Shown: positions 11,469 to 34,042 of the stretch, piece by piece
Layout: each line of letters starts with the position of its first letter
How positions within the stretch are numbered: the first letter of the stretch is position 1
Source: Promethearchaeota archaeon Loki_b31
GTDB lineage: Archaea > Asgardarchaeota > Lokiarchaeia > Sigyniarchaeales > SOKP01
Direction: 5' to 3'
Length of the DNA: 64,000 nt
Assembly (NCBI GenBank): GCA_005222975.1
Contig: NJBI01000002.1
Location: forward strand, 62,001 to 126,000
Notes under the pieces: model-generated
What the model was told of the DNA's origin: nothing
The model's input: the letters and a program-made list of their open reading frames with translations, nothing else
Database searches by the model: none
Made by a program: the position numbers and the translations under genes

Positions 11469-12581
11469 TTATTGTCGCTCTTTTAAAGCCTTTGCATATC
11501 TCTCGTATTTCCTTTTGCCAAAACCTATTACTTTAGCTAACATTTCTGACTTTTTGACGGATGTGTTAAATTCGTTTGGCTCTTTAATATAACCTTCTTT
11601 TAAAGCATTATTGTAAATTTCTTCGCCAATTTTAGTTCTTATCACCGTCGTAGTGAATCCATCTTGCGACCCTAAACCCCCAAATGATATGTCTGCATAA
11701 ACATTGGAAAAATCTCTGCAAGCGTAGCAAGCTGCTCTAGTAATACCTCCCAATTCATTAAAACCTATGTGGATGGATTTCTGATTTTGAAGATTTAATA
11801 TAAGGTCTTCTTTGATATTCATTTTTTCAACTTCGCTAAACGAGAAGTTAAATTTTTCTTCCAATTCTTTTCGTCCTTCAGTACTGAAAGAAAAATTTAA
11901 ATTGCAAAATAGCCCTAAAGTATATTTTATTATGTGTGCTGGCAAAATACTCAATTCTTGCATTTTCCTAATAGACATAATTTGGCAAGGGGTACCAACG
12001 ACTGCAATGCTCATCATATCCGAGCTAACGACTTTTTTTAATTTAGCTATTGTAGGAATGAAAGTATTATAGTTTTCTAAACCAACAACGCCTTGAGATA
12101 AATCAAAATGAGATCCTGCGGCTTCAATTAATTCTTCTTTAGTTGTCGCAAAGAAGGGTACTCGGTTAAACGGTCCTTCCTTTTTAGAAACTATTGCCCC
12201 ATTTATTAAATTACGATCTAATAAATAACTGAGAATGGCAGTGACCGCACCTCCATCAGTCGCGTTCTTTAAAATTTCTTCCGAATTAGCTTTATTCGAA
12301 GTAATTTTCAACCAATTACCTATGGATACTTTATAATCGTATCTTTCATTTAACTCCTTATCTAACACATGAGTTTGGGGGCAAATTAAATAACAGATAC
12401 CACATTTTAAACAATTATCTTTATTATAATATCTTGGAGGGCCAGATTCAGACATCTCGATTGCTTTTATCTCGTGTGCTGAGCAAAAACTCACACATCC
12501 TCCACATTCTCCACAAATTCCAAGTTCGTGAACATCTTTTATTAAATCATCAAAAGATTTTGGTAAAACTTCGTCAACCAT
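11469..12581 (-). CDS. FrhB-like F420/ferredoxin oxidoreductase subunit
   Basis: The 370-residue protein belongs to the coenzyme F420 hydrogenase/dehydrogenase beta-subunit family (FrhB/FpoF/FqoF). The N-terminus has two 4Fe-4S motifs: CGECGGCVSFC (about 22-32) and CLKCGICYLICP (about 57-68). The FrhB core follows, including TDGGAVTAILSYLLD (about 108) and VGTPCQIMSIRKMQ (about 200). A third cysteine group, RAACYACRDF, sits near 287. Such subunits carry FAD and exchange electrons with F420H2 or ferredoxin. It is the last gene of the Flx-Hdr operon, preceded by AGGTAGGTT, and probably provides an extra electron entry or exit. The identity of the electron carrier is inferred. Confidence 0.85.
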   Translation of the reverse strand: MVDEVLPKSFDDLIKDVHELGICGECGGCVSFCSAHEIKAIEMSESGPPRYYNKDNCLKCGICYLICPQTHVLDKELNERYDYKVSIGNWLKITSNKANSEEILKNATDGGAVTAILSYLLDRNLINGAIVSKKEGPFNRVPFFATTKEELIEAAGSHFDLSQGVVGLENYNTFIPTIAKLKKVVSSDMMSIAVVGTPCQIMSIRKMQELSILPAHIIKYTLGLFCNLNFSFSTEGRKELEEKFNFSFSEVEKMNIKEDLILNLQNQKSIHIGFNELGGITRAACYACRDFSNVYADISFGGLGSQDGFTTTVIRTKIGEEIYNNALKEGYIKEPNEFNTSVKKSEMLAKVIGFGKRKYERYAKALKERQ

Positions 12582-12629
12582 TTTTTAACCTACCTTTTTT
12601 TTATTTTTATTTGAAATTTATTTAATTTT

Positions 12630-13475
12630 TTAATATTCGGTTGGCAATTTTTTAAGCTCTGCCAAAGAAAAAACGGGACCATCGATACAGACATATTTAT
12701 TGCCAATATTGCATCTCCCACATTTTCCAACTCCACACTTCATCCTCATTTCTAATGAATTTAGTATCTGTTCGTCATTAAATTTTAATTCTTCTAGAAC
12801 TGCTATCGTCGTCTTAATCATGATTGGGGGGCCACACACTACAGCTATAGCGTTATCCGAAGAAGGGGCTACTTCCTTTACAATAGGGGCTACGAAACCT
12901 ACTTTTTCTTTCCACCCTTCCTCTTCGCGATCAATCGTTAAAACCACTTCAATATCGTCGTGTTTTTTCCATTCTTCTAAAACATTGCGGTATAAAACTT
13001 CACCGGAGTCGCGATTTCCATAAATCACCGTGATCTTCTTGTAATCTTTTCTGTGCTTCTCGTTTAGCAAATAAATAACGAGGGACCTTAAAGTTGAAAA
13101 CGCGAACCCCCCACCAATAACCACAATATCCTTACCCTTCATTTCTTCAATAGGCCATCCGTTTCCAAAAGGACCTCTTACGCCTACAACATCTCCAATA
13201 TTGCAGTTGTGAAATTCCGATGTTACGGTTCCCATCTTTTTTATAGTAAATTTAATCGAGCCTTCTTCAGTAGGAGATGAAGCAACTCCTATAGGTGCTT
13301 CACCCTTTCCTATTAAACTTATTTCAGCGAATTGTCCAGGAATATAATTGAATTTATTATAATCTTCTTCTTTTTTAAATTCTAATTCAAGAGTTTTAAT
13401 GTCATTAACTTTGTTTTCAGAAACAATATTTTTTATAGTGGTTAACGTTGGGATATAAAGATTAGGCACTTGCAT
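12630..13475 (-). CDS. flxA: FlxA-like FAD/NAD(P)H oxidoreductase subunit
   Basis: The 281-residue product is of the ferredoxin-NADP reductase/hydrogenase-gamma/PyrK type. It has a flavin-binding beta-barrel (about 10-105, with VGVRGPFGNGWP at about 93) and a nucleotide-binding domain beginning VVIGGGFAFSTLRSL (about 112). The C-terminal 2Fe-2S ligands are CGVGKCGRC and YVC (about 249-266). In bacterial FlxABCD-HdrABC systems this subunit oxidises or reduces NAD(H). Its start overlaps the end of the FlxB gene by 14 bases, behind GAGGAGG, which shows translational coupling. It is therefore the likely pyridine-nucleotide port of the complex. NADH versus NADPH cannot be decided. Confidence 0.85.
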   Translation of the reverse strand: MQVPNLYIPTLTTIKNIVSENKVNDIKTLELEFKKEEDYNKFNYIPGQFAEISLIGKGEAPIGVASSPTEEGSIKFTIKKMGTVTSEFHNCNIGDVVGVRGPFGNGWPIEEMKGKDIVVIGGGFAFSTLRSLVIYLLNEKHRKDYKKITVIYGNRDSGEVLYRNVLEEWKKHDDIEVVLTIDREEEGWKEKVGFVAPIVKEVAPSSDNAIAVVCGPPIMIKTTIAVLEELKFNDEQILNSLEMRMKCGVGKCGRCNIGNKYVCIDGPVFSLAELKKLPTEY

Positions 13476-14523
13476 TCTCCTCCTCTTTTGGTTTTATATT
13501 ATTTATTTTATTAATTATTGTTCTGAGATCGTTATTAACTGGGCATACTTGGATACATCGTCCACATCCCACACATCCAATTATATCGTAATTCAAGGGG
13601 TAATAACTAAATTTGTGTAATATACGATTTCGGCATCGCTCAATATTACTATTGCGGGGATTGTGACCGCTCGTATGAAGGGTATAAAGGCAGAATTGGC
13701 AAGTATCCCAGATTCTTATTCGTCTGCCACGATTCTCGTATTGAGCATTCTCATCGATAACATCAAAACAAGTGCATGTAGGGCATAAAAATGAACACGA
13801 TCCACACCCTAAACAATTTTCGCTAACCTCTTCCCAAATTGCGTTGCCAAAATTACTTTCTAAAATCTCACTCGTGTTAGTTAGATCTAATTTTGTGGTT
13901 ATTAAATCTTCTGCCTTCTTTGCTAATTCTTGTGCTTTTTTTATGTCTGCTTTAGAAGCTTTTAGAAGCCATGACAATTGTTGAATTAAGTTATTACCTT
14001 TATCACTTATACCTTCTACTAAATATTTATCGCCTAAATCTACTAAAAAGATATCCATATCATCTTTTTGGAAGGGATGTCCTTCTATCGACGTACAAAA
14101 ACATGTGCTTCTTGGAGAATTACAACCAATTCCTATTATTAAGCTATTTTCTCTTTTTTTTAAGAATATCTCATCTTGGAAATCCCCAAAAGCAAAGAAT
14201 TTTTCTAATAGATCAAAACTATGAGCATCGCACGGTCTTATACCGAAAAGAATATTTTTTTCGTCTAAATCTTTTCTATCTTCAATTTCTATAACATTTT
14301 TACCATCTGTTTTAAATTCAAAAAGAACTTCCATCTGTGGAAACAAAATTTCTTTTGGCGGAATTTTAGAATTGAAATAATTTAATTCAATTTCTTCTGG
14401 GTTTGAAATTTTTCTATAAGCAATATAACCTTTTTCTTTGACGGGAGCAAAGAAATTATATTCTCCTGATAACTCATTATATAACTTTGCGACCTGATCT
14501 TTCATTAAAATCATTACTTCCAT
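13462..14523 (-). CDS. flxB: FlxB-like 4Fe-4S protein (sulfhydrogenase beta type)
   Basis: The 353-residue protein resembles the HydB/AsrA family of electron-transfer subunits. The N-terminal half contains the family block NILFGIRPCDAHSFDLLEKFF (about 90-110) and CTSIEGHPF (about 142). The C-terminal half has two ferredoxin-like cluster sites, CLGCGSCSFLCPTCTC (about 239-254) and CVGCGRCIQVCPV (about 316-328). It would relay electrons between FlxA and FlxC/Hdr. The start follows GGTGG. Its stop overlaps flxA, and flxC lies 16 bases upstream, so the three form a tight translational unit. Confidence 0.85.
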   Translation of the reverse strand: MEVMILMKDQVAKLYNELSGEYNFFAPVKEKGYIAYRKISNPEEIELNYFNSKIPPKEILFPQMEVLFEFKTDGKNVIEIEDRKDLDEKNILFGIRPCDAHSFDLLEKFFAFGDFQDEIFLKKRENSLIIGIGCNSPRSTCFCTSIEGHPFQKDDMDIFLVDLGDKYLVEGISDKGNNLIQQLSWLLKASKADIKKAQELAKKAEDLITTKLDLTNTSEILESNFGNAIWEEVSENCLGCGSCSFLCPTCTCFDVIDENAQYENRGRRIRIWDTCQFCLYTLHTSGHNPRNSNIERCRNRILHKFSYYPLNYDIIGCVGCGRCIQVCPVNNDLRTIINKINNIKPKEEENASA

Positions 14524-14539
14524 TTTCTTACCACCTATA

Positions 14540-15577
14540 TTAATCCTCTTCCATCATAAATTCTTCTTTATCATTTATATTAAACGACATCATTGGAGGT
14601 ACCGTTTCTTTATCAATACCTGAAGTAAAGTTATATCTTTCTTTTACAATTTTCTCTAATTTTCTTGTTATTAAATTCAAATCAATACCCATGGGGCAAA
14701 CGCTACTACAAGCGCCACAAGCAACACATCTACCCGCTAAGTGCATAGCTCGATTAAAATGAAAAGCAAAAATATCTGTAAAATCAGTTGTTTTTCCAAA
14801 CCAAATGGGTTTATTTTGGTCCACGAAACACAGATTGCAATAACACATCGGACACACTTCTCTACACGCATAGCATCTCGTACATGCGCTTAAAGTATCT
14901 TTAATATACGCCCATTTTTCTTCAGAAGTTTTGGATTCAAAATCAGAAATATCGTTAAAATCATCTTCAATAACGGGATTTTCTAAGCATTCTCCTACAC
15001 ATGAACCATCCACGTTAGGAGGGGATTTGACTTTACAAACTTTACATAATTCATTCATATATTCGTCGAAAGGAAATGTTTCTTCAAAATCTCTTCCCTT
15101 TACGATAATATTATTACCCAAAATAGAGATTTCTAATATTTCTCTTTCTCCAATTTCCTTCTCAATTCTTTTTCTATTTATTATTCCATTACAGGAAATT
15201 CCTATCATTTTAATATTTTCAAAATTAATTTGATTCTCGACGGCTAAGTGAATTAATGCTCTTCCAACGCAACCTTTTGCGACAATACCAACTTTCAATT
15301 TTTGACCCTCTTCGTCGTACAGTGTAGGAATTCTAGGAGCTAAATAATTAGCTAAATTTACATAACATAAATTATTCCACAACAATTTATCCACATCTTC
15401 TTCATTCGTAATGAAAACTGGAGAAGAGCTTAAGGGGACCGTTCCCTTTGTATAACCGATAATTACATCAACTTCCTTTTCTCTAAGCAACTTCCTTGCT
15501 AATTCTTTAATCTTATTTTCAATGTCTTGGTTTTCTGATTCAATATCCCCCACTTTTTTATCACCATTTTTTCTCAA
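14540..15577 (-). CDS. flxC: FlxC-like 4Fe-4S dicluster protein
   Basis: The product is 345 residues. Residues about 30-200 form a globular domain seen in HydN/CooF/FrhB-associated proteins, with KVGIVAKGCVGRALIHLA (about 96-113), a cysteine at CNGII, and CKVCKVKSPP. The second half has two clusters: CTRCYACREVCPMCYC (about 233-248) and CVACGACSSVCPMG (about 286-299). It matches the FlxC position and architecture. Its first codons overlap the end of the MvhD gene (15561-15577). The name is assigned by gene order plus domain content, not by a distinctive FlxC-only motif. Confidence 0.75.
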   Translation of the reverse strand: MRKNGDKKVGDIESENQDIENKIKELARKLLREKEVDVIIGYTKGTVPLSSSPVFITNEEDVDKLLWNNLCYVNLANYLAPRIPTLYDEEGQKLKVGIVAKGCVGRALIHLAVENQINFENIKMIGISCNGIINRKRIEKEIGEREILEISILGNNIIVKGRDFEETFPFDEYMNELCKVCKVKSPPNVDGSCVGECLENPVIEDDFNDISDFESKTSEEKWAYIKDTLSACTRCYACREVCPMCYCNLCFVDQNKPIWFGKTTDFTDIFAFHFNRAMHLAGRCVACGACSSVCPMGIDLNLITRKLEKIVKERYNFTSGIDKETVPPMMSFNINDKEEFMMEED

Positions 15578-16022
15578 ATTTTTTATTTGGTCCCAGTTTT
15601 TTAACCAATTTGGTGGTTTTTCTTATCAAAACAGCAAAACGTTCACCTTCAGCAGCAGAAGCCCACATAAAATTAACTCTATCTGGTTCAATTCCGAAGA
15701 ATTCTAATAGATCCTTTAAAATTCCAAACCTTCTTCTAGCTACTAAATTTCCTGTTATATAATGGCAATCTCCGGGATGGCATCCAGAAACCAGAACTCC
15801 ATCCCATCCATCTAATAATGCTTTTACTATAAAATAAGGATTTATTCTACCTGAACATGGAACTCTAACTACTCTAATATTTGGAGGGTATTGAATTCTA
15901 CTCACTCCTGCTAGATCTGCTCCAGCATAGGAACACCAATTGCATAAAAATGCTAATATCTTAGGTTCCCATTCATCATTACTATTTTTTATTTGTTCTG
16001 TTTCACTCGTAATTTCGTTCAT
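15561..16022 (-). CDS. MvhD-type 2Fe-2S electron-transfer protein (FlxD-like)
   Basis: The 153-residue protein is a near-complete MvhD domain, which passes electrons from an input module to HdrA. The conserved cysteines are visible: FLCNWCSYAGADLAGVSR (about 27-44), VPCSGR (about 55), SGCHPGDCHY (about 77). Positions where some archaeal homologues use selenocysteine are cysteine codons here. It lacks the C-terminal extension of its paralogue at 19046-19816. It ends inside flxC and starts just after the fused HdrA, 4 bases apart. It is probably the partner of the fused HdrA. Confidence 0.9.
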   Translation of the reverse strand: MNEITSETEQIKNSNDEWEPKILAFLCNWCSYAGADLAGVSRIQYPPNIRVVRVPCSGRINPYFIVKALLDGWDGVLVSGCHPGDCHYITGNLVARRRFGILKDLLEFFGIEPDRVNFMWASAAEGERFAVLIRKTTKLVKKLGPNKKFEKKW

Positions 16023-16026
16023 TTTA

Positions 16027-19000
16027 TTAATTCCTCCCAGTTATCATTGCAAATATTTGTTCACCTGTGAAACCGCGAATGTCAATGGCAGCACACCTGC
16101 AGTTACCTGCACACGCCCCACATCCTTTACAGAGTATCTGGTTTATATATGCAACTCTACCGAAATGCCTATCATCGATTAATTCAATAGCATTATAGGC
16201 GCAATTCTCAATACACATCCCACACCCAGTACAACGAGCCATGTCAATCTCTCCGATTTTACCTTCAACCTCGATCTCATCTTTAGAGAGAATTGTACAA
16301 GCCCTTGCAACAGCTGCGTTAGCTTGAGCAATAGAATCCTCAATTGTCTTTGGACAATGTGCTAATCCTGCCACAAATACGCCTTCTGTAGCGAAATCTA
16401 CTGGACGTAATTTAACATGGGCTTCTAAAAAGAAATTATCGTTGTTTAAAGGAACTTTTAGCATTTTTGCTAACTCCTCGTTATCCTCGCGTTTTGCTAT
16501 AATACCCGCACTCAAAACTAAAAGGTCGGATTCAATTGTAATTTCTCCCATCTTCTGAGTCTTTAATTTAACTTTTAATACTGAACCTTCTGAAATTATT
16601 TCTGGAGGATCATTTTCTTCGTATTTAATGAATATTACTCCATTTTCTCGCGCTTTTCGATAATACTTTTCTTTAAACCCATATGTTCTTATATCTCTAA
16701 ATAAAACTACAACTTCAACATTTGGATTTTTCTGTTTTGCCAAAAGAGCGTTCTTTATCGCTTCAGCACAACACATTTTACTGCAATAGGGATGGTCGTC
16801 GTTTCTAGAACCAACACACTGGATCATAACTACTGATTTTTTATCGTTAATATCATTAGAGGTGTTTAATAATTTTTCAAATTCCGATTGTAGAATTACT
16901 TTGTTATTCTGACCGTATGAATACTCTGTAGGTTGATATTCACTGGCTCCTGTAGCTACAATCACCACTCCATGCTCAAACTCTGTTTTCTCTTTATTTG
17001 AACCGTGGATAACTGTAGTCTTAAAATTTCCAATATAACCATCAATAATTTCAATTTCTGCTTGAGTAAAAACACGGATTAATTTGTTTGAATTGATTTT
17101 TTCAATTAAATCTGATATAAATTCTTGAACATTGCCACCTTCAAGCGTGGTATATATATGTCGAGCAAATCCCCCCAATTCTTTTTGTTTTTCAACCAAA
17201 AACGTCTCATATCCTTGCGTTGCAAAATTAAGTGCAGCAACCATTCCGCTAATTCCCCCTCCTACAATTAAAGTTTTTTGCGTTACTGGTAATTTTATCC
17301 GTTCGATAGCCTCAATATTTCTTGCTTTATTTACAGCCATCCTCACGAGGTCCTTCGCCTTTTCGGTTGCTTTTTCCCACTCGTTCATGTGAACCCAAGA
17401 ACATTGATCTCTGATATTTGCCATTTGAAATAAATATCTATTTAAACCCGCTTCTCTAATTGTTTCTTGAAACAACGGTTCGTGAGTTCTTGGCGTACAA
17501 GAAGCAACAACGACGCGGTTAAGGTGATATTCCTTTATTACATCTTTTATTATCGTTTGAGTATCTGCGGAACATGTATATAAATTATTATCTGCTAAAA
17601 CTACATTTGGAAGATTACTTGCATATTTGGTAACTTCTGGTACATCTAAAAAGCCCCCTATGTTAATTCCACAGTAACAGATAAACACACCAATTCTGGG
17701 CGGTTGACCTCTTACAAATATCTCCGGAGGAAGCGTTTTTTCTGTTATTAATGTACCTTTCTTTTCGTGTAAAAGTTGATTAACGCAACCAGCAGCAGCA
17801 CTAGCTTGCGTAACTGTATCTGGAATGTCTTTAGGAGAAGAAAAAGCTCCACATGCAAATATTCCAGGTTTTGATGTTTGTACGGGGTTAAAAATATCTG
17901 TTATAGCAAAATCATATTCATTTAATTCTACGCCGAACTTCTCCGCAAGAAATTTAGCGTCGTTAGGAGGATTTAAACCAACGGCAAGGACTACCATGTG
18001 ATAATCCTCTTCTACTATTGTACCATCTTCCGTTTCATATTTAATTCTTAAGTCTTTCGTTTCTGGTACTTCGGTTATTGAAGATACACGGCTTCTAATA
18101 TAGCGAACTCCATATTGTTCTTGTGCCCGAATAATATATTTATCAAAATCTTTACCATATGCCCTTACATCCATGCTAAAAATCGTTGGCTGTATTTGAT
18201 GCATGTGTTCATGGGCAATTACTGCTTCTTTCGCAGTATACATACAACATACTGACGAACAATAGGGCTTTCCTTTACCTGTATAATCACGAGAGCCTAT
18301 ACATTGGAGGAATGCTACTTTTTCTGGGACATCTCCGTCCGAGGGTCGTAATACTCTCCCCGCGTAAGGACCACTAGCACTCAAAATTCTTTCAAACTCT
18401 ATACTCGTAACTACGTTCTTATACTTTCCATACCCATAAAGGTTACCTTCTGATGGAATGTATTCGTCAAACCCAGGAGCCAATATTATTGCACCAACAT
18501 TAATTTCGGCTTCCTCGTCTTTTCTATCGTATTCTATGGCTTTTGCTTTGCAGACTCCTTGACATATTCCGCAACCAATACAATAATTTTTATCAATAGC
18601 AAATACGAGAGGTACTGCTTGAGGATATTTAACTGATGTTGCTGCATATTTCGCTAAACCTTCATTAAAGACATCAATCGCTTCAACAGGACACTCACGA
18701 CCACATACTCCACAACCAGTGCACTTTTCAGGGTTTATATATAACGATTTTTTTAGTACTTTTATTGTAAAATTTCCAGCTTCTCCTATAACATCTTGAA
18801 TTTCACAATTAATACTCAAATCTATGTTCTGGTGTCGCCCAGTTTCAACTAACTTAGGACTTACAATACACATCGCACAATCGTTCGTAGGAAATGTTTT
18901 ATCCAACTGTGCCATTACGCCACCAATGCTCGTCGTGGATTCAATCAAATAAACTTTGTATCCCGAATCTGCTAAGTCTAATGCCGCTTGCGAACCTCCA

Positions 19001-19041
19001 ATTCCCGCACCTACAACCATTACTGCCCCAATCTTTTCCAT
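16027..19041 (-). CDS. hdrA: HdrA, fused double-module form (1004 residues)
   Basis: HdrA is the FAD subunit that carries out flavin-based bifurcation in heterodisulfide reductase complexes. This copy joins two HdrA-like halves. Residues 1-440 have an FAD motif VVGAGIGGSQAAL, PTNDCAMCIVSPKL, two ferredoxin sites CTGCGVCGRECPV and CIGCGICQGVCKA, and CIGSRDYTGKGKPYCSSVCC. Residues about 445-1004 start with IGVFICYCGINIGG and have a second FAD motif VGGGISGMVAALNFA (about 600). They also carry CVGSRNDDHPYCSKMCC and C-terminal clusters CTGCGMCIENC and CKGCGACAGNC (about 936-990). Canonical HdrA is about 650 residues. The neighbouring genes 21515-22837 and 19822-21510 encode the same two halves separately. 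Confidence 0.93.
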   Translation of the reverse strand: MEKIGAVMVVGAGIGGSQAALDLADSGYKVYLIESTTSIGGVMAQLDKTFPTNDCAMCIVSPKLVETGRHQNIDLSINCEIQDVIGEAGNFTIKVLKKSLYINPEKCTGCGVCGRECPVEAIDVFNEGLAKYAATSVKYPQAVPLVFAIDKNYCIGCGICQGVCKAKAIEYDRKDEEAEINVGAIILAPGFDEYIPSEGNLYGYGKYKNVVTSIEFERILSASGPYAGRVLRPSDGDVPEKVAFLQCIGSRDYTGKGKPYCSSVCCMYTAKEAVIAHEHMHQIQPTIFSMDVRAYGKDFDKYIIRAQEQYGVRYIRSRVSSITEVPETKDLRIKYETEDGTIVEEDYHMVVLAVGLNPPNDAKFLAEKFGVELNEYDFAITDIFNPVQTSKPGIFACGAFSSPKDIPDTVTQASAAAGCVNQLLHEKKGTLITEKTLPPEIFVRGQPPRIGVFICYCGINIGGFLDVPEVTKYASNLPNVVLADNNLYTCSADTQTIIKDVIKEYHLNRVVVASCTPRTHEPLFQETIREAGLNRYLFQMANIRDQCSWVHMNEWEKATEKAKDLVRMAVNKARNIEAIERIKLPVTQKTLIVGGGISGMVAALNFATQGYETFLVEKQKELGGFARHIYTTLEGGNVQEFISDLIEKINSNKLIRVFTQAEIEIIDGYIGNFKTTVIHGSNKEKTEFEHGVVIVATGASEYQPTEYSYGQNNKVILQSEFEKLLNTSNDINDKKSVVMIQCVGSRNDDHPYCSKMCCAEAIKNALLAKQKNPNVEVVVLFRDIRTYGFKEKYYRKARENGVIFIKYEENDPPEIISEGSVLKVKLKTQKMGEITIESDLLVLSAGIIAKREDNEELAKMLKVPLNNDNFFLEAHVKLRPVDFATEGVFVAGLAHCPKTIEDSIAQANAAVARACTILSKDEIEVEGKIGEIDMARCTGCGMCIENCAYNAIELIDDRHFGRVAYINQILCKGCGACAGNCRCAAIDIRGFTGEQIFAMITGRN

Positions 19042-19045
19042 AATC

Positions 19046-19816
19046 TTATCTCCCCCATAACCTCATAAATATTGGTGTATTTCCTTTAATCTCTTGAAAG
19101 TCAACTTGACCGCGAGTTTTTAAAGTTAGTACATGCTCTAAAATTATACTCGGATCAATCTTTAACTCAACCGCTAAATCTTTTACAGAATTCGAATCTT
19201 TTTCTAAAGCAAGTAAAACTCGGTGCCGCTCAAATTCATCTGTTATCGCTTTATCCATTAAAATGTTAAAGCTCTGCTCAATGATTTGTTCCCCATAGAC
19301 ATTTTCACTTTCAAGTAGGGTTTTCTCTCTTCCTACTAATGCTCGCATCCTATTACTACCCGCGGCCAATTTTATTGCTTTAAGTTTATCGAGTATATCT
19401 TCGTCGGGATTCTCCCCACTTAGGGGTGAAGGACCTAATTCTTTAATGTGCTTAATGAATTCGGTTACAACTTCACCAAATCTAGTACCTTCCGAAGCAG
19501 AAACCCAATCTAATCTCACTCTTTTATCAAAGTTAATAAATTTAAGAAATTGTTGGGTCATATCAAATTTGGTTATTGCTTCGTAATTTCCTTCAAGATA
19601 ATGGCAATCTCCGGGATGACATCCCATTACAAATACTCCATCGATTCCTAATTCAAAAGCGTGAAAAATAAATTTAGGGTCAACTCGACCGCTACACATG
19701 ACTCTAATTACTCGCATATTCGTAGGGTATTGAATTCTGCTAACACCTGCTAAATCGGCACCAGCATAGGAGCACCAATTACATAAAAAACCTAAAATTT
19801 TTGGTTCAAAACTCAT
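19046..19816 (-). CDS. MvhD-type protein with C-terminal winged-helix extension
   Basis: Residues 1-140 are an MvhD domain almost identical in plan to the one at 15561-16022 (FLCNWCSYAGADLAGVSR, VMCSGR, MGCHPGDCHY). Residues about 185-256 add a helical domain with winged-helix character (VKDLAVELKIDPSIILEHV, then GNTPIFMRLW). Similar extensions occur in bacterial FlxD/MvhD proteins. The start follows GGAGGTT and lies 5 bases after the HdrA second-half gene. It is most likely the electron-delivery partner of the split HdrA. The extension may mediate protein contacts rather than DNA binding, which is an inference. Confidence 0.88.
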   Translation of the reverse strand: MSFEPKILGFLCNWCSYAGADLAGVSRIQYPTNMRVIRVMCSGRVDPKFIFHAFELGIDGVFVMGCHPGDCHYLEGNYEAITKFDMTQQFLKFINFDKRVRLDWVSASEGTRFGEVVTEFIKHIKELGPSPLSGENPDEDILDKLKAIKLAAGSNRMRALVGREKTLLESENVYGEQIIEQSFNILMDKAITDEFERHRVLLALEKDSNSVKDLAVELKIDPSIILEHVLTLKTRGQVDFQEIKGNTPIFMRLWGR

Positions 19817-19821
19817 CTTTA

Positions 19822-21510
19822 TTAACCTCCAAAAGCTTCAATTTCAGAAAAAATTTGATCATCTGTAAAATGTCTTATCACAATTGCTTGACTCGTACAT
19901 GTTGCACCACACACTCCGCATCCTTTACATAATGCTTCTATAATTTCAATCTCATCCTTTTCATTTTTGATAATTGCATTAAAAGGACAGACTTTGATAC
20001 ATATTTCGCAACCAGTACACAGACTTTTATTATATTCGGGTAAACTTGATGTTGCTCCTTCTACTTCGAGCGATTCATGAGACAAAACTCTGCTTGCCCT
20101 TGCCGCAGCAGCATATCCTTGAGTAATAGCTTCTGTTATATCTACGGGCCATTTAGCTGAACCACCAATATAGATTCCATCTGTGGCAAAGTCGTTAGGA
20201 CGTAGTTTTACGTGTGCCTCCAAAAAGAATTTGTTAGTTTCTAAAGGGACCTTTAACATTTGAGCAAGTTCTTTGTTATCGTTATTCGCAACTAACGGCG
20301 TTGATAACACAAGTAAATCATATGGAAGGATCAGTTCTTCCCCCATATATTCGTTAAATACTTTTACATGGTCTTCTTCTACAGTTGGTACTTTATCAAG
20401 ACTATATTTAATAAAGAGCACGCCTTGTTCCCGTGCATCTCTATAGTATTTCTCGTAATCTGTTCCAGGAGTATATAAATCTCTAAATAAGATCGTAATA
20501 TTTGCTTCAGGATTTTTTTCTTTAATAATTAAAGCATTTTTTAAAGCCGTCATGCAACAAACGCTTGAACAGTATGGGCGTTCGTCAATTCGAGAACCTA
20601 CGCACTGTATCATTACAAAATTATTTGCTTTTACATCGTTATTTATAAATTTATGCTCTAATTCAAATTGCGTGATTCTTGTTTTACCGTCGTACCCATA
20701 TAAATTGTTAGGCGTAAAAAGTGAAGAACCTACAGCAACTATTATAGCACCTACGGACAATTCAATATTTTTTCCATTTTGTTCTACTTCTACCTCGAAA
20801 TTACCTACAAATCCATCAATATTTTTAACTATGGTTGATGTTAAAACTTGCAAATTTTGAGCATTTTGAATGTTATTTTTAATTTTATCTAAAAAATCTG
20901 AAGCGTCTAATTGATGAGGAAAGAGTTTATGTAGCGAATTTAACCTTCCTCCTAATTTATCTTCCTTCTCAATTAAGTAGGTTTGAAATCCTTGTCTGCT
21001 TAAATTCAGAGCCGCACTCATACCAGCGACACCTCCACCAATTACTAAAGCGGACGGGTTAACACTTACCATGATTATATCGAGTGCTTCAAGCTTTACA
21101 GCTTTAGCAGTTCCCATCCTAATTAAATCTTGAGCTTTCTTATAAGCTTCCTCGGGCTGCTTTTGATGTACCCAAGTACATTGATCACGAATATTAACAA
21201 AGTTAAAGAGATATTTGTTTAAACCCGCTTCGGAAACACAATCTCGGAATAAGGGTTCGTGAGTTCTTGGCGTACAAGATGCTACAACAACGCGATTTAA
21301 ATTGCGTTCTTCGATTGCCGCCTTAATACTCGCTAAACCGTTTTCTGAACAAGTATATAGGTTATCCTCTGCATAGGTAACATTTGGAAGACTTTTTGCT
21401 TCTTCAGCTAAAGTCTTACAGTCTATCAAACCACCTATATTTGAACCACAATGACATACAAATACTCCCACCCTTACATCTTCAATATCTTTCTTTTCTT
21501 CTTCTGACAT
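19822..21510 (-). CDS. hdrA: HdrA C-terminal half as a separate protein
   Basis: The 562-residue product aligns with residues about 445-1004 of the fused HdrA. It opens with VRVGVFVCHCGSNIGG (about 11-26) and VASCTPRTHEPLF (about 75). It has an FAD motif VIGGGVAGMSAALNLS (about 155), CVGSRIDERPYCSSVCC, and two C-terminal ferredoxin clusters CTGCEICIKVCPF and CKGCGVCGATC. It should hold the bifurcating-type flavin and pass electrons to HdrBC. The start is preceded by GAGGAGG. Together with the 440-residue product upstream it equals the length of the fused paralogue (440 + 562 versus 1004). Confidence 0.92.
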   Translation of the reverse strand: MSEEEKKDIEDVRVGVFVCHCGSNIGGLIDCKTLAEEAKSLPNVTYAEDNLYTCSENGLASIKAAIEERNLNRVVVASCTPRTHEPLFRDCVSEAGLNKYLFNFVNIRDQCTWVHQKQPEEAYKKAQDLIRMGTAKAVKLEALDIIMVSVNPSALVIGGGVAGMSAALNLSRQGFQTYLIEKEDKLGGRLNSLHKLFPHQLDASDFLDKIKNNIQNAQNLQVLTSTIVKNIDGFVGNFEVEVEQNGKNIELSVGAIIVAVGSSLFTPNNLYGYDGKTRITQFELEHKFINNDVKANNFVMIQCVGSRIDERPYCSSVCCMTALKNALIIKEKNPEANITILFRDLYTPGTDYEKYYRDAREQGVLFIKYSLDKVPTVEEDHVKVFNEYMGEELILPYDLLVLSTPLVANNDNKELAQMLKVPLETNKFFLEAHVKLRPNDFATDGIYIGGSAKWPVDITEAITQGYAAAARASRVLSHESLEVEGATSSLPEYNKSLCTGCEICIKVCPFNAIIKNEKDEIEIIEALCKGCGVCGATCTSQAIVIRHFTDDQIFSEIEAFGG

Positions 21511-21514
21511 TTTT

Positions 21515-22837
21515 TTAACCTCCTCTAATTACTTCTGCTGCCCTTGCTGCCGCACCGCTCGCCTCAGAAACCGAGCGTGGTATATCCATTGGCTCATGCA
21601 CGCATCCGCATGTGAAGATACCTCCCTTACTGGTTTCTGTTGAGTCAAAAGGAGGAGTTTTAACAAATCTATACTCGTTTAATTCAATACCTAAAACTTC
21701 TGACATTTTCTCAATTCCTTCTGGTGGGATAATACACGTGGCTAAAACTGCTAAGTCTACTTTTAATTCTTTTATCTCTCCATTGTCCAAATCTTCATAC
21801 ACTATAATCGGATTTTCTTTATTATCAACGGTAATTTGAGCAATTTTACTCTTAATATATTTAATACTATAATCATTTTCGCCCCTTTGAATAAAAGATT
21901 GAAAGCCTTTACCCCCTGCTCTCATATCTATATAAAAGACATACGACTCCAATTCATTATTATGCTCGTAAGCTATCATAGCTTCTTTAGTTGTATACAT
22001 ACAACAAATCGACGAGCAATACTGTCTACTTCTATCGTTTCGTGAACCGATACATTGTAAATAAGCTATTTTTTTTGGTTTTTCTCCATCAGATAGTCTT
22101 TTTATGTGCCCATCTTGAGGTCCAGAAGCGCTTAACAATCTTTCGAATTCTAAGGCGGTAACGACATTCCTGTACTTTTGATAACCGTAATTTCTTAAAA
22201 CCTCATTATCAATATCTTCGATCAAATTATACCCCGTAGCAACGATAATAGAACCAACATTATTCAATTTAATTTGTTGATCTTGTTGCTCAAAATCAAT
22301 TGCTTCCTTCTCACAAACTTTCTCACAAATTCTACAAGCGTTCTTTGTAAACCATAAGCAATTATCCTTATCAATCGTCATTATAGCAGGAACTCCTTGC
22401 AAGTAATACATATAAATAGCTCTCCTTTTTCTTAGCTGACGATCGAATTCATCTATTACCCTCATTGGGCATTTTTCAGCGCAAACACCGCAATTTATAC
22501 ACTCATCTTCTTTAACGTAGCGTGCACGTTTTAAAATATCGACCGAAAAATTACCGCTCTCACCCTCCACTTTCTGAACTTCTGAATACGAATAGAGCGT
22601 AATGTTTGGATGTCTATAACATTCTGATAATTTAGGGGCTAATATGCAAATCGAACAATCGTTGGTAGGAAATGTTTTATCTAATTGGGCCATTCTGCCC
22701 CCGATATTTGGAGCTTTTTCTACCATATCTACATGTATTCCCATATCCGCTAAATCTAATGCTGCTTGAATTCCTGCGATCCCACCACCGATAACTAAGA
22801 CACTCTTTGAGTTTTTTTCCAAATTTACTTCACTCAT
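21515..22837 (-). CDS. hdrA: HdrA N-terminal half as a separate protein
   Basis: The 440-residue product aligns with residues 1-440 of the fused HdrA. The FAD motif is VIGGGIAGIQAALDLA (about 15-30), followed by PTNDCSICILAPKL. A ferredoxin cluster CINCGVCAEKCPM and a second site, CRICEKVCEKEA, are present. CIGSRNDRSRQYCSSICC follows at about 265-280, and the end is SEASGAAARAAEVIRGG. In the second ferredoxin site the first cysteine is displaced (DNCLWFTKNACRIC), which differs from CIGCGIC in the fused paralogue. It is the third gene of the operon, 24 bases after hdrB. Confidence 0.9.
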   Translation of the reverse strand: MSEVNLEKNSKSVLVIGGGIAGIQAALDLADMGIHVDMVEKAPNIGGRMAQLDKTFPTNDCSICILAPKLSECYRHPNITLYSYSEVQKVEGESGNFSVDILKRARYVKEDECINCGVCAEKCPMRVIDEFDRQLRKRRAIYMYYLQGVPAIMTIDKDNCLWFTKNACRICEKVCEKEAIDFEQQDQQIKLNNVGSIIVATGYNLIEDIDNEVLRNYGYQKYRNVVTALEFERLLSASGPQDGHIKRLSDGEKPKKIAYLQCIGSRNDRSRQYCSSICCMYTTKEAMIAYEHNNELESYVFYIDMRAGGKGFQSFIQRGENDYSIKYIKSKIAQITVDNKENPIIVYEDLDNGEIKELKVDLAVLATCIIPPEGIEKMSEVLGIELNEYRFVKTPPFDSTETSKGGIFTCGCVHEPMDIPRSVSEASGAAARAAEVIRGG

Positions 22838-22861: not shown

Positions 22862-23737
22862 TTAAACATTAAACCCTATACTTTCGAATAATTCCTTTGG
22901 TTTAATTCGATGAAAGTTAAATCCTAATTCTTCCGGTTTAAACCCAAATGATAAAGCCATCAACTCAGACAAATAAAAAACAGGTATGTTGTATTCAGTA
23001 TTATTTCTCTTGTTAAGTTCTCTCTGATTAAACTCAAATTGTTGATAACAAGCAGGACATACTACAACAACACAGTTAGCGCCAGCTTCATTAATTGCTT
23101 TCAATTTGTTGTCTATCATTTGCAGAGATAAATCCCTATCCGACTTATCAAGAGGATTTCCACAACACTCCATTTTTAGCTCATATTCTATGGATTCCGC
23201 TCCCAATGTCTTAACGATTTCATCTAAAGTTACTGGTTCAAATGGGTCGTCCCATTTAATAAACTCTGAAGGCCTTAAATAGTGACAACCGTAATGAATG
23301 GCGACCTTAAAACCTTCCAAGGGTTTTTCTATGTTTTCTTTAACTTTTTCTAGATTTTCATAAAGAACTTGAGCAAAATGTTTTACTTCTGTTTTGCCCT
23401 CATATGTCTTTCCAATCCTTTTTAAGTATTTGTTAACTTTTTGCTTAGCGTCTCTATCCTTATTTATAAAATAATTTACGCCTTTTAATGTTTCAACGCA
23501 TCCTGAGCAAAAAGATATGACTCCTCCATTGTTATTGCACAAACTTAAATTCCTTGCACCCAAAGCTAACCATGTTTCGTGGTCAATTAGTTCAATTCCA
23601 GTAGGATCAGGACAACAACTAAATCCGTCAACATCTCGTAATTCAATACCAAGTTTTTCAAAAACTTTTCTTGAAGATACCTCTAAATAAGGTAATCTTG
23701 CCGGAATAACGCAACCCAAAAATAAATCGTACGCCAT
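22862..23737 (-). CDS. hdrB: heterodisulfide reductase subunit B
   Basis: HdrB carries the catalytic non-cubane 4Fe-4S clusters that reduce a disulfide. The 291-residue product has two CCG-domain repeats. The first is FSCCPDPTG (about 40) with SFCSGC (about 75). The second is HYGCHYLRP (about 148), MECCGNPLDKSD (about 190) and VVCPACYQQF (about 222). This is the full ligand set. In methanogens the substrate is CoM-S-S-CoB; in other lineages it is a different or unknown disulfide. The gene starts 1 base after hdrC ends, so both are co-translated. Confidence 0.93.
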   Translation of the reverse strand: MAYDLFLGCVIPARLPYLEVSSRKVFEKLGIELRDVDGFSCCPDPTGIELIDHETWLALGARNLSLCNNNGGVISFCSGCVETLKGVNYFINKDRDAKQKVNKYLKRIGKTYEGKTEVKHFAQVLYENLEKVKENIEKPLEGFKVAIHYGCHYLRPSEFIKWDDPFEPVTLDEIVKTLGAESIEYELKMECCGNPLDKSDRDLSLQMIDNKLKAINEAGANCVVVVCPACYQQFEFNQRELNKRNNTEYNIPVFYLSELMALSFGFKPEELGFNFHRIKPKELFESIGFNV

Positions 23738-23738
23738 T

Positions 23739-24236
23739 TTATTCGCGCCCCCTCAAGATATTTTTTTCAAAATTAGTCTCTCTCATTAGAGTTTTAATCT
23801 CTTCCGCTGACGCGATTTTGATCTCTGGAAGACCTAATTTTTTACGCCTAGCAACGATCGAATTTGAATAAGGAATGGCAACTCCAGTATCAAATACCGC
23901 TTTACCCTGGGAGTAAAACGCTTCGGGATATTTCTGCTCTTCAAAACACAAGTTTTTTATTAAAGTAAATATCTCCGTTAATTCTACCTTTTGAGGGCAC
24001 AACTCAACGCATTTTTGACAAGTCGAACACAACCAGGGGTTAGGATCTTGACTCTCAACTAATTTATCCTTTAATCCTAATATTGCCTCTTCAATTATTT
24101 TTCTAGGATTATACTTCCCATTTGTAAGTAAAGCTACAGGACACCCACCAGAACACGTTGAACATTGATAACAATAACTTAATGAAGCGTTATGCTTGAG
24201 TACTTCGTTTCTAAAATTATAATTTACGACACTCAT
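23739..24236 (-). CDS. hdrC: heterodisulfide reductase subunit C
   Basis: The 165-residue protein is a soluble HdrC with two classic 4Fe-4S motifs, CYQCSTCSGGCPV (about 22-34) and CSTCQKCVELCPQ (about 71-83). It links HdrA to HdrB. No membrane HdrE-like partner is present, so this is the cytoplasmic HdrABC type. It is the first gene of the 12.8-kb Flx-Hdr operon. An AGAGG sequence lies about 8 bases before the ATG, and a 184-base spacer separates it from the cysteine-rich mini-proteins on the same strand. Confidence 0.93.
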   Translation of the reverse strand: MSVVNYNFRNEVLKHNASLSYCYQCSTCSGGCPVALLTNGKYNPRKIIEEAILGLKDKLVESQDPNPWLCSTCQKCVELCPQKVELTEIFTLIKNLCFEEQKYPEAFYSQGKAVFDTGVAIPYSNSIVARRKKLGLPEIKIASAEEIKTLMRETNFEKNILRGRE

Positions 24237-24420
24237 GTCAAAACCTCTTTTTCTAACCTTTTGTGATTTTTAATGGTATAACTAATTTAAATTTTACAAA
24301 AAGGAAATATAAGTTCAATTAATTTATTACATTTCAGCACAATTAGATAAATTATAATGGAAAATCGACATTTCCATTCTAACTTGTTTAGATAACTATT
24401 GAATTTGATTCTATTTTTAA
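24237..24420 (-). promoter_or_regulatory. likely promoter region of the Flx-Hdr operon
   Basis: This non-coding gap lies between the cysteine-rich genes and hdrC. On the minus strand it contains AT-rich TATA-like candidates, such as TTTAAATTAG and AACTTATATTTCC, 45-80 bases before the hdrC start. The Shine-Dalgarno-like AGAGG is near 24245. It could hold the operon's own promoter, or the operon may be read through from the cysteine-rich genes. I see no strong terminator between them. Confidence 0.35.
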
Positions 24421-24699
24421 TTACTCGAGATGCTTTTGAAGATCTATGTAAATTGGTATCTCTTCGCCCTTCTTCTTAATTACAACTCTTAAAAGCCCAT
24501 CCTCTATAGATGTTTCAATTGGTCTTAACTCTTCTTCGGACGCTTTTGGAGCGATATCCCCTTCAGGACGCTTCGTTTTAGTCTTTAAACAAGTGTGTTG
24601 CTCGTTATAGAGAAGACAGTGTGAACAACAAAAGCCTTCCGGCATATATCCCACTATTGAACACTTATCGTAATTGTCGCAATTACAGTTGTTACACAT
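24421..24699 (-). CDS. 8-cysteine mini-protein A
   Basis: The 92-residue product begins with a cysteine-rich domain that its two upstream neighbours share: MCNNCNCDNYDKCSIVGY, then PEGFCCSHCLLY and a last cysteine near residue 37. The motif is MCNxCxC, CSIVGYxP, FCCxxC, Y and C, with eight cysteines in about 37 residues. A charged tail (about 40-92) follows and ends VIKKKGEEIPIYIDLQKHL. The cysteine pairs suggest metal or iron-sulfur binding or thiol redox chemistry. No known family is recognised. Its position directly upstream of hdrCB suggests a link to the Hdr complex. Confidence 0.8.
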   Translation of the reverse strand: MCNNCNCDNYDKCSIVGYMPEGFCCSHCLLYNEQHTCLKTKTKRPEGDIAPKASEEELRPIETSIEDGLLRVVIKKKGEEIPIYIDLQKHLE

Positions 24700-24711
24700 A
24701 AGCGTTTACCT

Positions 24712-24942
24712 CTATTTGCCTATGATAGTGGTTATCTTTTCCTTTTTTGCTTCTTCCTGAGTTTCAACTCGAATATGTTGAGAATTTGAGTCAAAAACCT
24801 TTGCTTTCATTCTAATATAATTTTCGCACGAATGTCTATTTTCGTACCCTACACAAATTTCGCAACAAAACGCAATCGGTTGGTACCCAACAATCGAACA
24901 TCGATCGTAAGCATCTTGACTACAATTACAGCTATTACACAT
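24712..24942 (-). CDS. 8-cysteine mini-protein B
   Basis: The 76-residue paralogue of the neighbouring genes has MCNSCNCSQDAYDRCSIVGY with one extra residue before the tyrosine, then IAFCCEICVGY and a final cysteine at about residue 38. All eight cysteines are conserved, while the tail (about 40-76) is unrelated in sequence and highly charged. The gene ends 12 bases before mini-protein A begins, so the two are probably co-transcribed. The function is unknown. Conservation of the core with divergence of the tail suggests that the core does the chemistry and the tail sets partner specificity. Confidence 0.8.
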   Translation of the reverse strand: MCNSCNCSQDAYDRCSIVGYQPIAFCCEICVGYENRHSCENYIRMKAKVFDSNSQHIRVETQEEAKKEKITTIIGK

Positions 24943-24962
24943 ATTTAATTCCCTCTCGATTT

Positions 24963-25139
24963 TTAGTGAATAATTATCTGTGTTGGCAGGTTATTCCTGC
25001 TAAACTCAACTTCTCTTAGTGTCTGAAAGCATTTTTCCCGGTCTTCGTAAAAAACACATTTAGGACAACAAAAACCTAATGGAAAATACCCGACAATGGA
25101 ACATTTCTCGTAGTTTTCGCAATCGCAGTTATTACACAT
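24963..25139 (-). CDS. 8-cysteine mini-protein C (58 residues)
   Basis: The ATG is at 25137-25139 and the stop at 24963-24965. The product begins MCNNCDCENYEKCSIVGY, continues PLGFCCPKCVFYED, and has the eighth cysteine at residue 37, then a short tail ending in PTQIIIH. It aligns with mini-proteins A and B over the whole cysteine domain, which confirms that this short frame is real. It is the first gene of the three-gene array, 20 bases before mini-protein B. The function is unknown. Its promoter must lie in the 668-base spacer that also serves the divergent Lrp gene. Confidence 0.8.
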   Translation of the reverse strand: MCNNCDCENYEKCSIVGYFPLGFCCPKCVFYEDREKCFQTLREVEFSRNNLPTQIIIH

Positions 25140-25295
25140 TTTTATTCACTTTTATTATTTTTTTATTGTGAATTAATTCCCACAATTTTTTTTACTATGA
25201 TCATAATTAGATAAATTAGTATTTAAATGTGACTTTTTCCAACTTTTCGACTAGACTTTTTATCGATAATTATGATTTTGTTTGTTTAGAGCAAT

Positions 25296-25807: not shown

Positions 25808-26227
25808 ATGGATGTTATAGACATTAAGATTTTAGAAGAATTAAAAATGGATAGTAGAATGTCGTTTAATGAAATCAGTAAACGTATTATGAAAACAGAA
25901 GCAACCGTTAGAAGAAGAGTGAAAAAATTGAGAGAAGATGGAATTATCAAGCGGTTTACAATAGATTATGTAATTGATACAAAACCTAAAACTTCCGCAA
26001 CTATAAAAATAGAGCCTGATTTCAAAGATATTAAGCGAATTTTGAATGAATTAAAAGAAATTGAGGAAATAACGGCTATTTGGAGGTTATCTGGAGATTG
26101 TGGACTTCTTATGAAAGTAGATATTGCCTCTATCGAGAAGTTTAATCCCCTTATAGAAGACAAGATCTCTCAGGTTTCAGGAATAAAAATAGTAGAAACC
26201 TGTTTTATAACTGATATTATCAAATAA
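25808..26227 (+). CDS. Lrp/AsnC-family transcriptional regulator
   Basis: The 139-residue product has the two-domain Lrp fold. Residues 1-55 form the helix-turn-helix (DVIDIKILEELKMDSRMSF, then EATVRRRVKKLREDGIIKRF). Residues about 62-139 form the RAM/effector domain (TSATIKIEP, ITAIWRLSGDCGLLMKVDI, then VETCFITDIIK). Such proteins form dimers or octamers and sense amino acids or related metabolites. It is divergent from the cysteine-rich/Flx-Hdr genes across a spacer with repeated TGATCA sites. Control of both directions is therefore a reasonable inference. The effector is unknown. Confidence 0.92.
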   Translation: MDVIDIKILEELKMDSRMSFNEISKRIMKTEATVRRRVKKLREDGIIKRFTIDYVIDTKPKTSATIKIEPDFKDIKRILNELKEIEEITAIWRLSGDCGLLMKVDIASIEKFNPLIEDKISQVSGIKIVETCFITDIIK

Positions 26228-33865: not shown

Positions 33866-34042
33866 ATGTCAAGTTTTAAAAAAAAAATGTGTTTCTCGTG
33901 TGGACGACCGATTGCGCCTTATGAAGGTGCAGTTCATTTTCCTTGTCCCCAATGCGGGGATGTAACTATTTGGAGATGCGAACGATGTAGAGCTATGGGG
34001 AACCAATATACTTGCCTAAAGTGCAGCTTTTCGGGCCCATAA
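33866..34042 (+). CDS. small zinc-ribbon protein (HVO_2753-like)
   Basis: This 58-residue frame encodes two zinc-ribbon-type cysteine sets: CFSCGRPIAP with FPCPQCGDVT (residues 9-12 and 27-30), and WRCERCRAMGNQYTCLKC (37-53). The double CxxC pattern and size match the archaeal small zinc-finger family common next to translation genes. It lies just upstream of aEF-1beta on the same strand (38-base gap), as in many archaea, so it probably acts in translation or RNA binding. Confidence 0.82.
   Translation: MSSFKKKMCFSCGRPIAPYEGAVHFPCPQCGDVTIWRCERCRAMGNQYTCLKCSFSGP

Follow-up and report, generated by a model that had tools for sequence, protein, structure and literature searches.

Tandem eight-cysteine mini-proteins next to an Hdr/Flx operon of Lokiarchaeia and their possible role as a metalloprotein accessory

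DsrC, a small thiol protein tied to an Hdr system, has two conserved cysteines at its flexible C-terminus. For the Hdr complexes of Asgard archaea we are not aware of any physiological disulfide or partner that has been established. In sulfate reducers, the FlxABCD-HdrABC complex has been proposed to be the partner of DsrC (PMC6470260), and in Asgard archaea both MvhADG-HdrABC and FlxABCD-HdrABC complexes have been assigned in syntrophic metabolism (PMC7015854). Work with co-expressed HdrBC has a precedent in the HdrB2C2 of M. acetivorans (PMC5296606). The locus described here lies within a window of 64 kb (the whole stretch of DNA that was analyzed), in which an operon with Hdr, FlpD and Flx genes is preceded by three mini-genes. 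Like that of DsrC, these are small thiol-protein genes tied to an Hdr system; unlike DsrC, the encoded proteins carry eight N-terminal cysteines (residues 2-37), and Pfam and other family searches gave no DsrC-type match. A small, easily expressed family that is tied to one Asgard Hdr complex represents a concrete candidate for a partner.

Organization of the mini-gene array and the Hdr/Flx operon

The three mini-genes are found on the minus strand and encode, in order, proteins of 58 (copy 3, 24963..25139), 76 (copy 2, 24712..24942) and 92 amino acids (copy 1, 24421..24699), with intergenic gaps of 20 and 12 bp. All three start with ATG-TGY and share a core of around 37 residues at the extreme N-terminus (MCNxCxC, CSIVGYxP, FCCxxC, Y, C), in which the cysteines are spaced as CxxCxC-x5-C-x10-CCxxC-x8-C. 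The residues that are invariant in the three-copy alignment are M1, C2, N3, C5, C7, Y10, C13, S14, I15, V16, G17, Y18, P20, F23, C24, C25, C28, Y31 and C37. The core is followed by a short tail in copy 3, contains a 2-residue insert after C7 in copy 2, and continues in copy 1 into a variable linker and a conserved C-terminal beta tail of three strands. Then, 184 bp after the array and on the same strand, follows hdrC (24236-23739), and inspection of this gap revealed no terminator-like site. The first-pass annotation, which had described three adjacent 8-Cys genes upstream of hdrC on the same strand without a clear terminator, was thus accurate with respect to the reading frames, the common core and the gap, and its label 'Hdr-Flx operon' is right in substance given the Hdr, FlpD and Flx gene content.

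The first gene of the linked operon, hdrC (23739..24236, minus strand), encodes two CxxCxxCxxxC motifs, and the adjacent hdrB (22862..23737, minus) two complete CCG motifs (C9-CC41/42-C77xxC80 and C151-CC191/192-C227xxC230). The remainder of the operon (11469..22837, minus) comprises two HdrA-like pieces (440 and 562 aa), FlpD, a 1004-aa HdrA, a further FlpD, two Fe-S subunits, a Flx-like NAD/FAD subunit that is related to sulfhydrogenase gamma/AsrB, and FrhB. Together, the two adjacent HdrA-like genes (19822-22837, minus) are as long as the 1004-aa HdrA (16027-19041), and they appear to represent its double-HdrA architecture in split form. A UGA recoding event was ruled out as the origin of this split, since the reading frames of the two genes differ.

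A 13-mer, AATTTATCTAATT, has exactly two exact matches within the 64 kb, both on the minus strand: one 65 nt before the mini-gene array (25205..25217), which is a putative promoter or regulatory element, and one 104 nt before hdrC (24341..24353), so that each transcription unit is preceded by a copy. The expected number of matches is 0.10, which, as the count was made after the element had been spotted, serves as a guide rather than a test. Close relatives have largely retained the element, and L076/L082 carry a copy with one mismatch before the mini-gene; a role as class-wide regulon motif was rejected, the element being clear only among close relatives. Its presence before both units suggests two promoters under common control. 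The array and hdrC probably each have a promoter of their own, and the array probably shares its control with the adjacent hdrCB-hdrA-flpD-flx operon. A candidate regulator is encoded divergently at 25808..26227 (plus strand), by a gene of the Lrp/AsnC family whose NCBIfam Lrp-type matches remain below cut-off; such a gene recurs near the mini-genes in 14/45 loci.

Conservation, distribution and linkage to hdrC

Orthologous mini-gene arrays were found in related species and, together with the low dN/dS of the cores, these indicate that the three ORFs are real genes. In seven close species the dN/dS values, which are sums over species pairs and thus descriptive, were 0.040, 0.093 and 0.265 for the cores of copies 1, 2 and 3, and 0.45, 0.17 and 0.40 for the respective tails, with hdrC at 0.083 for comparison. 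The eight cysteines are invariant in 31/31 diverse cores and 81 of the 82 unique family ORFs retain all of them (one of these 81 starts with a codon outside ATG/GTG/TTG, was scored as a fragment and is intact on read-through). The mini-gene cores are under purifying selection, as was proposed in the first-pass annotation on the basis of the retained cysteines. The accompanying claim that the tails differ holds between paralogues and fails between orthologues, where the tail of copy 1 is conserved over its last ~30 residues and rich in beta structure. This 92-aa paralogue is present in nearly all loci of family f1; the other paralogues are lineage-specific extras, and the total amounts to about 1-4 genes per locus.

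The family was recovered from 55 of 228 genomes of the Asgard phylum, all within the Lokiarchaeia, the class of the window, and widening of the search to 393 genomes yielded no further members. When 84,980 named species genomes were scanned, 42 loci were recovered, all 42 from Lokiarchaeota/Lokiarchaeia or Helarchaeota, although diverged members elsewhere could have escaped the two peptide patterns that were used. Pfam, NCBIfam and PHROGs gave no significant match to the mini-proteins (a PHROG match at E 0.22 was dismissed as chance level), and the best matches in a PDB sequence search had E values of at least 0.7. The 8-Cys mini-proteins constitute an uncharacterized, Lokiarchaeia-specific family, which is new in the sense that Pfam and NCBIfam have missed it; the alternative of a well-characterized family, which the first-pass annotation had itself raised, finds no match in Pfam, NCBIfam or PHROGs.

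The connection to hdr genes is strong. An hdrC of the window type (at least 67% identity) occurs in 42 of the 65 family f1 genomes and the mini-protein in 41 of these 42, as compared to 10 of the 23 genomes without such an hdrC (Fisher P 8e-7, without correction for kinship). In the sole exception (G140), hdrC lies 235 bp from the contig end and its upstream region falls beyond the contig. In the hdrC tree, a mini-gene lies no more than 2 kb away in all 32 rows of a supported clade (21 on the hdrC strand, 11 divergent), and 6 changes are needed to place the three arrangement states on the 42-row tree. Such adjacency, kept while the orientation changed, points to function and not just to an inherited gene order. 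Similar arrangements were observed in more distant families: a mini-gene precedes hdrC in G048 (f2), two copies are located between the Flx genes and hdrBC in G052 (f6, Helarchaeota), and a mini-gene is found a few kb from hdr in G053 (f7). Conserved linkage to hdrCB, as one would look for in a partner of the Hdr system, was thus observed in 32/32 clade loci and in two orientations. Together with the co-occurrence, it strongly supports the association that had been suspected from the window, and the opposite outcome, homologues mostly away from hdr genes, was not encountered.

The linkage has its limits. Among the several Hdr operons of a genome, the mini-genes go with a single one, and not with Fe-S assembly genes. 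Sister Hdr operons of the same layout have no adjacent mini-gene in G042, G046, G054, G108 and G139, and neither has hdrCB of G050, on a partial contig. In genus g6 a full-length mini-protein is encoded away from any hdr gene, in G142 the mini-gene is found beside lipoamide dehydrogenase without adjacent hdr, and the 53-aa variants of G025 and G033 have no hdr gene nearby. Considering the sister operons that lack the mini-protein and its occurrence away from hdr in g6, the mini-protein would be an accessory and not an obligate Hdr substrate. In addition, the divergent mini-genes (11 loci) lie outside the operon, and adjacency therefore need not mean a stoichiometric partnership. The mini-protein may serve more than one client. 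In g6, a conserved flavoprotein-like gene of 194 aa that contains a CxxCxxC stretch (L101:6367-6951 and L034:11443-12027) lies close to the mini-genes, and its product is a possible alternative redox client. A dihydrolipoyl dehydrogenase-like gene adjoins the mini-genes at L040, L046, L048 and L105, in several genera. Lipoamide dehydrogenase was rejected as a general conserved partner; it is present in 48/58 relatives, mostly elsewhere in the genome.

The cysteine core and possible roles of the mini-proteins

Taking the data together, the best explanation overall, to which we give almost as much credence as doubt, is that the mini-proteins form a Lokiarchaeia-specific metalloprotein accessory of one Hdr complex. 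Given eight invariant cysteines, no clear fold and an anaerobic, cytosolic setting, we infer that a metalloprotein is more natural than a dithiol carrier. A natural variant is informative in this respect. One paralogue of G026 (L020:1168-1440, plus strand, and L108:1999-2271) carries the changes C2V, C24E, C28F and C37F, and retains CNC-x5-C...GF-x-C (C5/C7/C13/C25) as well as the beta tail; a normal copy stands in tandem with it, and hdrC follows after about 1 kb. The loss of exactly four of the eight cysteines in this one variant suggests that the core consists of two predicted Cys4 metal sites, {5,7,13,25} and {2,24,28,37}. If so, the neighboring C24 and C25 would be ligands of different metals, and the sites would be close to each other. 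The variant makes the metal-site proposal directly testable.

More explicitly, the mini-proteins would be small cytosolic metalloproteins whose core of ~37 residues probably needs metal in order to fold; C5/C7/C13/C25 and C2/C24/C28/C37 would form two sites for Zn, Fe or a small Fe-S centre. In line with this, AlphaFold, which models no metals, gave the core no confident fold (pLDDT about 50-64 in two runs), although such low confidence can also reflect disorder or a shallow alignment. A fold search with the model, in which the beta tail accounted for the best match (E 0.17), was uninformative. As accessory of that one Hdr, the protein would act as a metal-centred redox partner or, less likely, as a carrier of metal or Fe-S. 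The most specific version of this idea, that Lokiarchaeia invented a family with a compact two-site thiolate metal centre as the dedicated redox partner (acceptor or donor) of an Asgard Hdr-Flx complex, is possible and in our opinion rather unlikely. Small ferredoxins and rubredoxins, which are likewise small and Cys-rich, can act as one-electron carriers close to flavin enzymes. The CxxCxC of the mini-proteins nevertheless differs from the CxxCxxC...C of ferredoxins (for which CxxCxxCxxxC was used as the Fer4 test) and from paired CxxC knuckles, and no Fer4 or rubredoxin match to the mini-proteins was obtained.

The first-pass annotation had proposed a partner of Hdr in the form of a disulfide carrier or metallo-redox protein, or else a protein for metal storage or assembly. 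A DsrC-like thiol/disulfide carrier would be reduced by HdrB in its oxidized form, or would donate electrons to HdrB in its reduced form. This would be in line with the position of the mini-genes at the hdrCB end of the operon, with an HdrB that retains both CCG motifs of the disulfide-reducing HdrB, with the vicinal CC and CxxC pairs of the mini-protein and with the proposed DsrC partnership of FlxABCD-HdrABC in sulfate reducers (PMC6470260). Two reactive cysteines would suffice for such a carrier, yet all eight are fixed, and the idea is further weakened by the clean loss of four cysteines, by the same-layout Hdr operons without the mini-protein, and by g6, which has the mini-protein without an adjacent Hdr. 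Of the roles proposed at first, the disulfide carrier therefore ranks below a metal/redox accessory and appears improbable, whereas the metallo-redox or metal/Fe-S assembly alternative fits better.

The variation in tandem copy number (1-4 genes) and the richness of the linked operon in Fe-S proteins could also point to supply or storage, with the mini-protein as a chaperone or metallothionein-like buffer that fills the Hdr/Flx clusters and tandem copies for dose. The small, Cys-rich metallothioneins SmtA/BmtA (PF02069; PDB 1jjd, 6gv6) indeed have a cysteine register, CxxCxC-(15-16)-[FY]C-x3-C-(8-9)-C, that can be aligned to the mini-proteins with one gap and six matched cysteines. Random placement reproduces an SmtA-like pattern in 0.065% of trials, for a pattern chosen after the fact. 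The mini-proteins, unlike SmtA/BmtA, lack the final CxC and the Zn-ligand His and have C13 and C25 instead; homology to SmtA was rejected because, despite the attractive register, the hhalign probability was 0.2, and PF02069 has no match in the genome of the window at E<=10. Considering this lack of profile similarity to metallothioneins, the ties to one of several Hdr operons instead of to Fe-S assembly genes, and a conserved tail that is unexpected of a mere buffer, we regard supply or storage as unlikely.

The metalloprotein accessory, which we prefer, has a further competitor in a zinc-finger-like adaptor or regulator, whose structural zinc core would bind protein or nucleic acid and whose link to Hdr would be regulatory. 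The mini-protein core resembles the CxxC ... C ... P-x-G-[aromatic]-x-CxxC arrangement of PHD/treble-clef fingers, in particular PxGFCCxxC the zinc-knuckle loop (PDB sequence match to the BRPF1 PHD, E 0.72), although it is half the length of a PHD finger. Variable tails, the recurrent Lrp/AsnC neighbor and the occurrence in g6 and G142 without adjacent hdr would suit such a role, as would a Helarchaeota member (L089:8001-8324) with a zinc-ribbon-like C-terminal part (CxxC...CxxC) behind the 8-Cys core. Against it stand the linkage to one particular hdrC clade and the Pfam search at E<=10, which gave no PHD (C4HC3) or zinc-ribbon match for any of 56 members and one C2H2-type match at E 7.7; an adaptor of this kind seems quite unlikely to us. 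The TRASH domain (PF08394) was rejected as well, its one match in the genome of the window (E 0.46) being on another contig and not in the mini-genes.

For the accessory, the paralogue-specific C-terminal tails would probably serve as docking or specificity parts. The tail of copy 1 (24421-24540, minus) is modeled with a pLDDT of ~83 and is possibly a docking beta-hairpin. It is similar to the C-terminal strands of the archaeal Hsp20 alpha-crystallin domain (ISxxIEDGLLKVVIxxK, compared with ..ISSKMTNGLLRVIIGKK.. of L094; Pfam HSP20 E 0.062 in 2 members), but the likeness covers only ~25 residues and the alpha-crystallin domain is lacking, and it may be convergent. Elsewhere in the window, a 58-aa Cys-rich ORF (33866-34042, plus strand; MCFSCGRPIAPYEGAVHFPCPQCGDVTIWRCERC...) is zinc-ribbon-like and, by motif, unrelated to the 8-Cys family.
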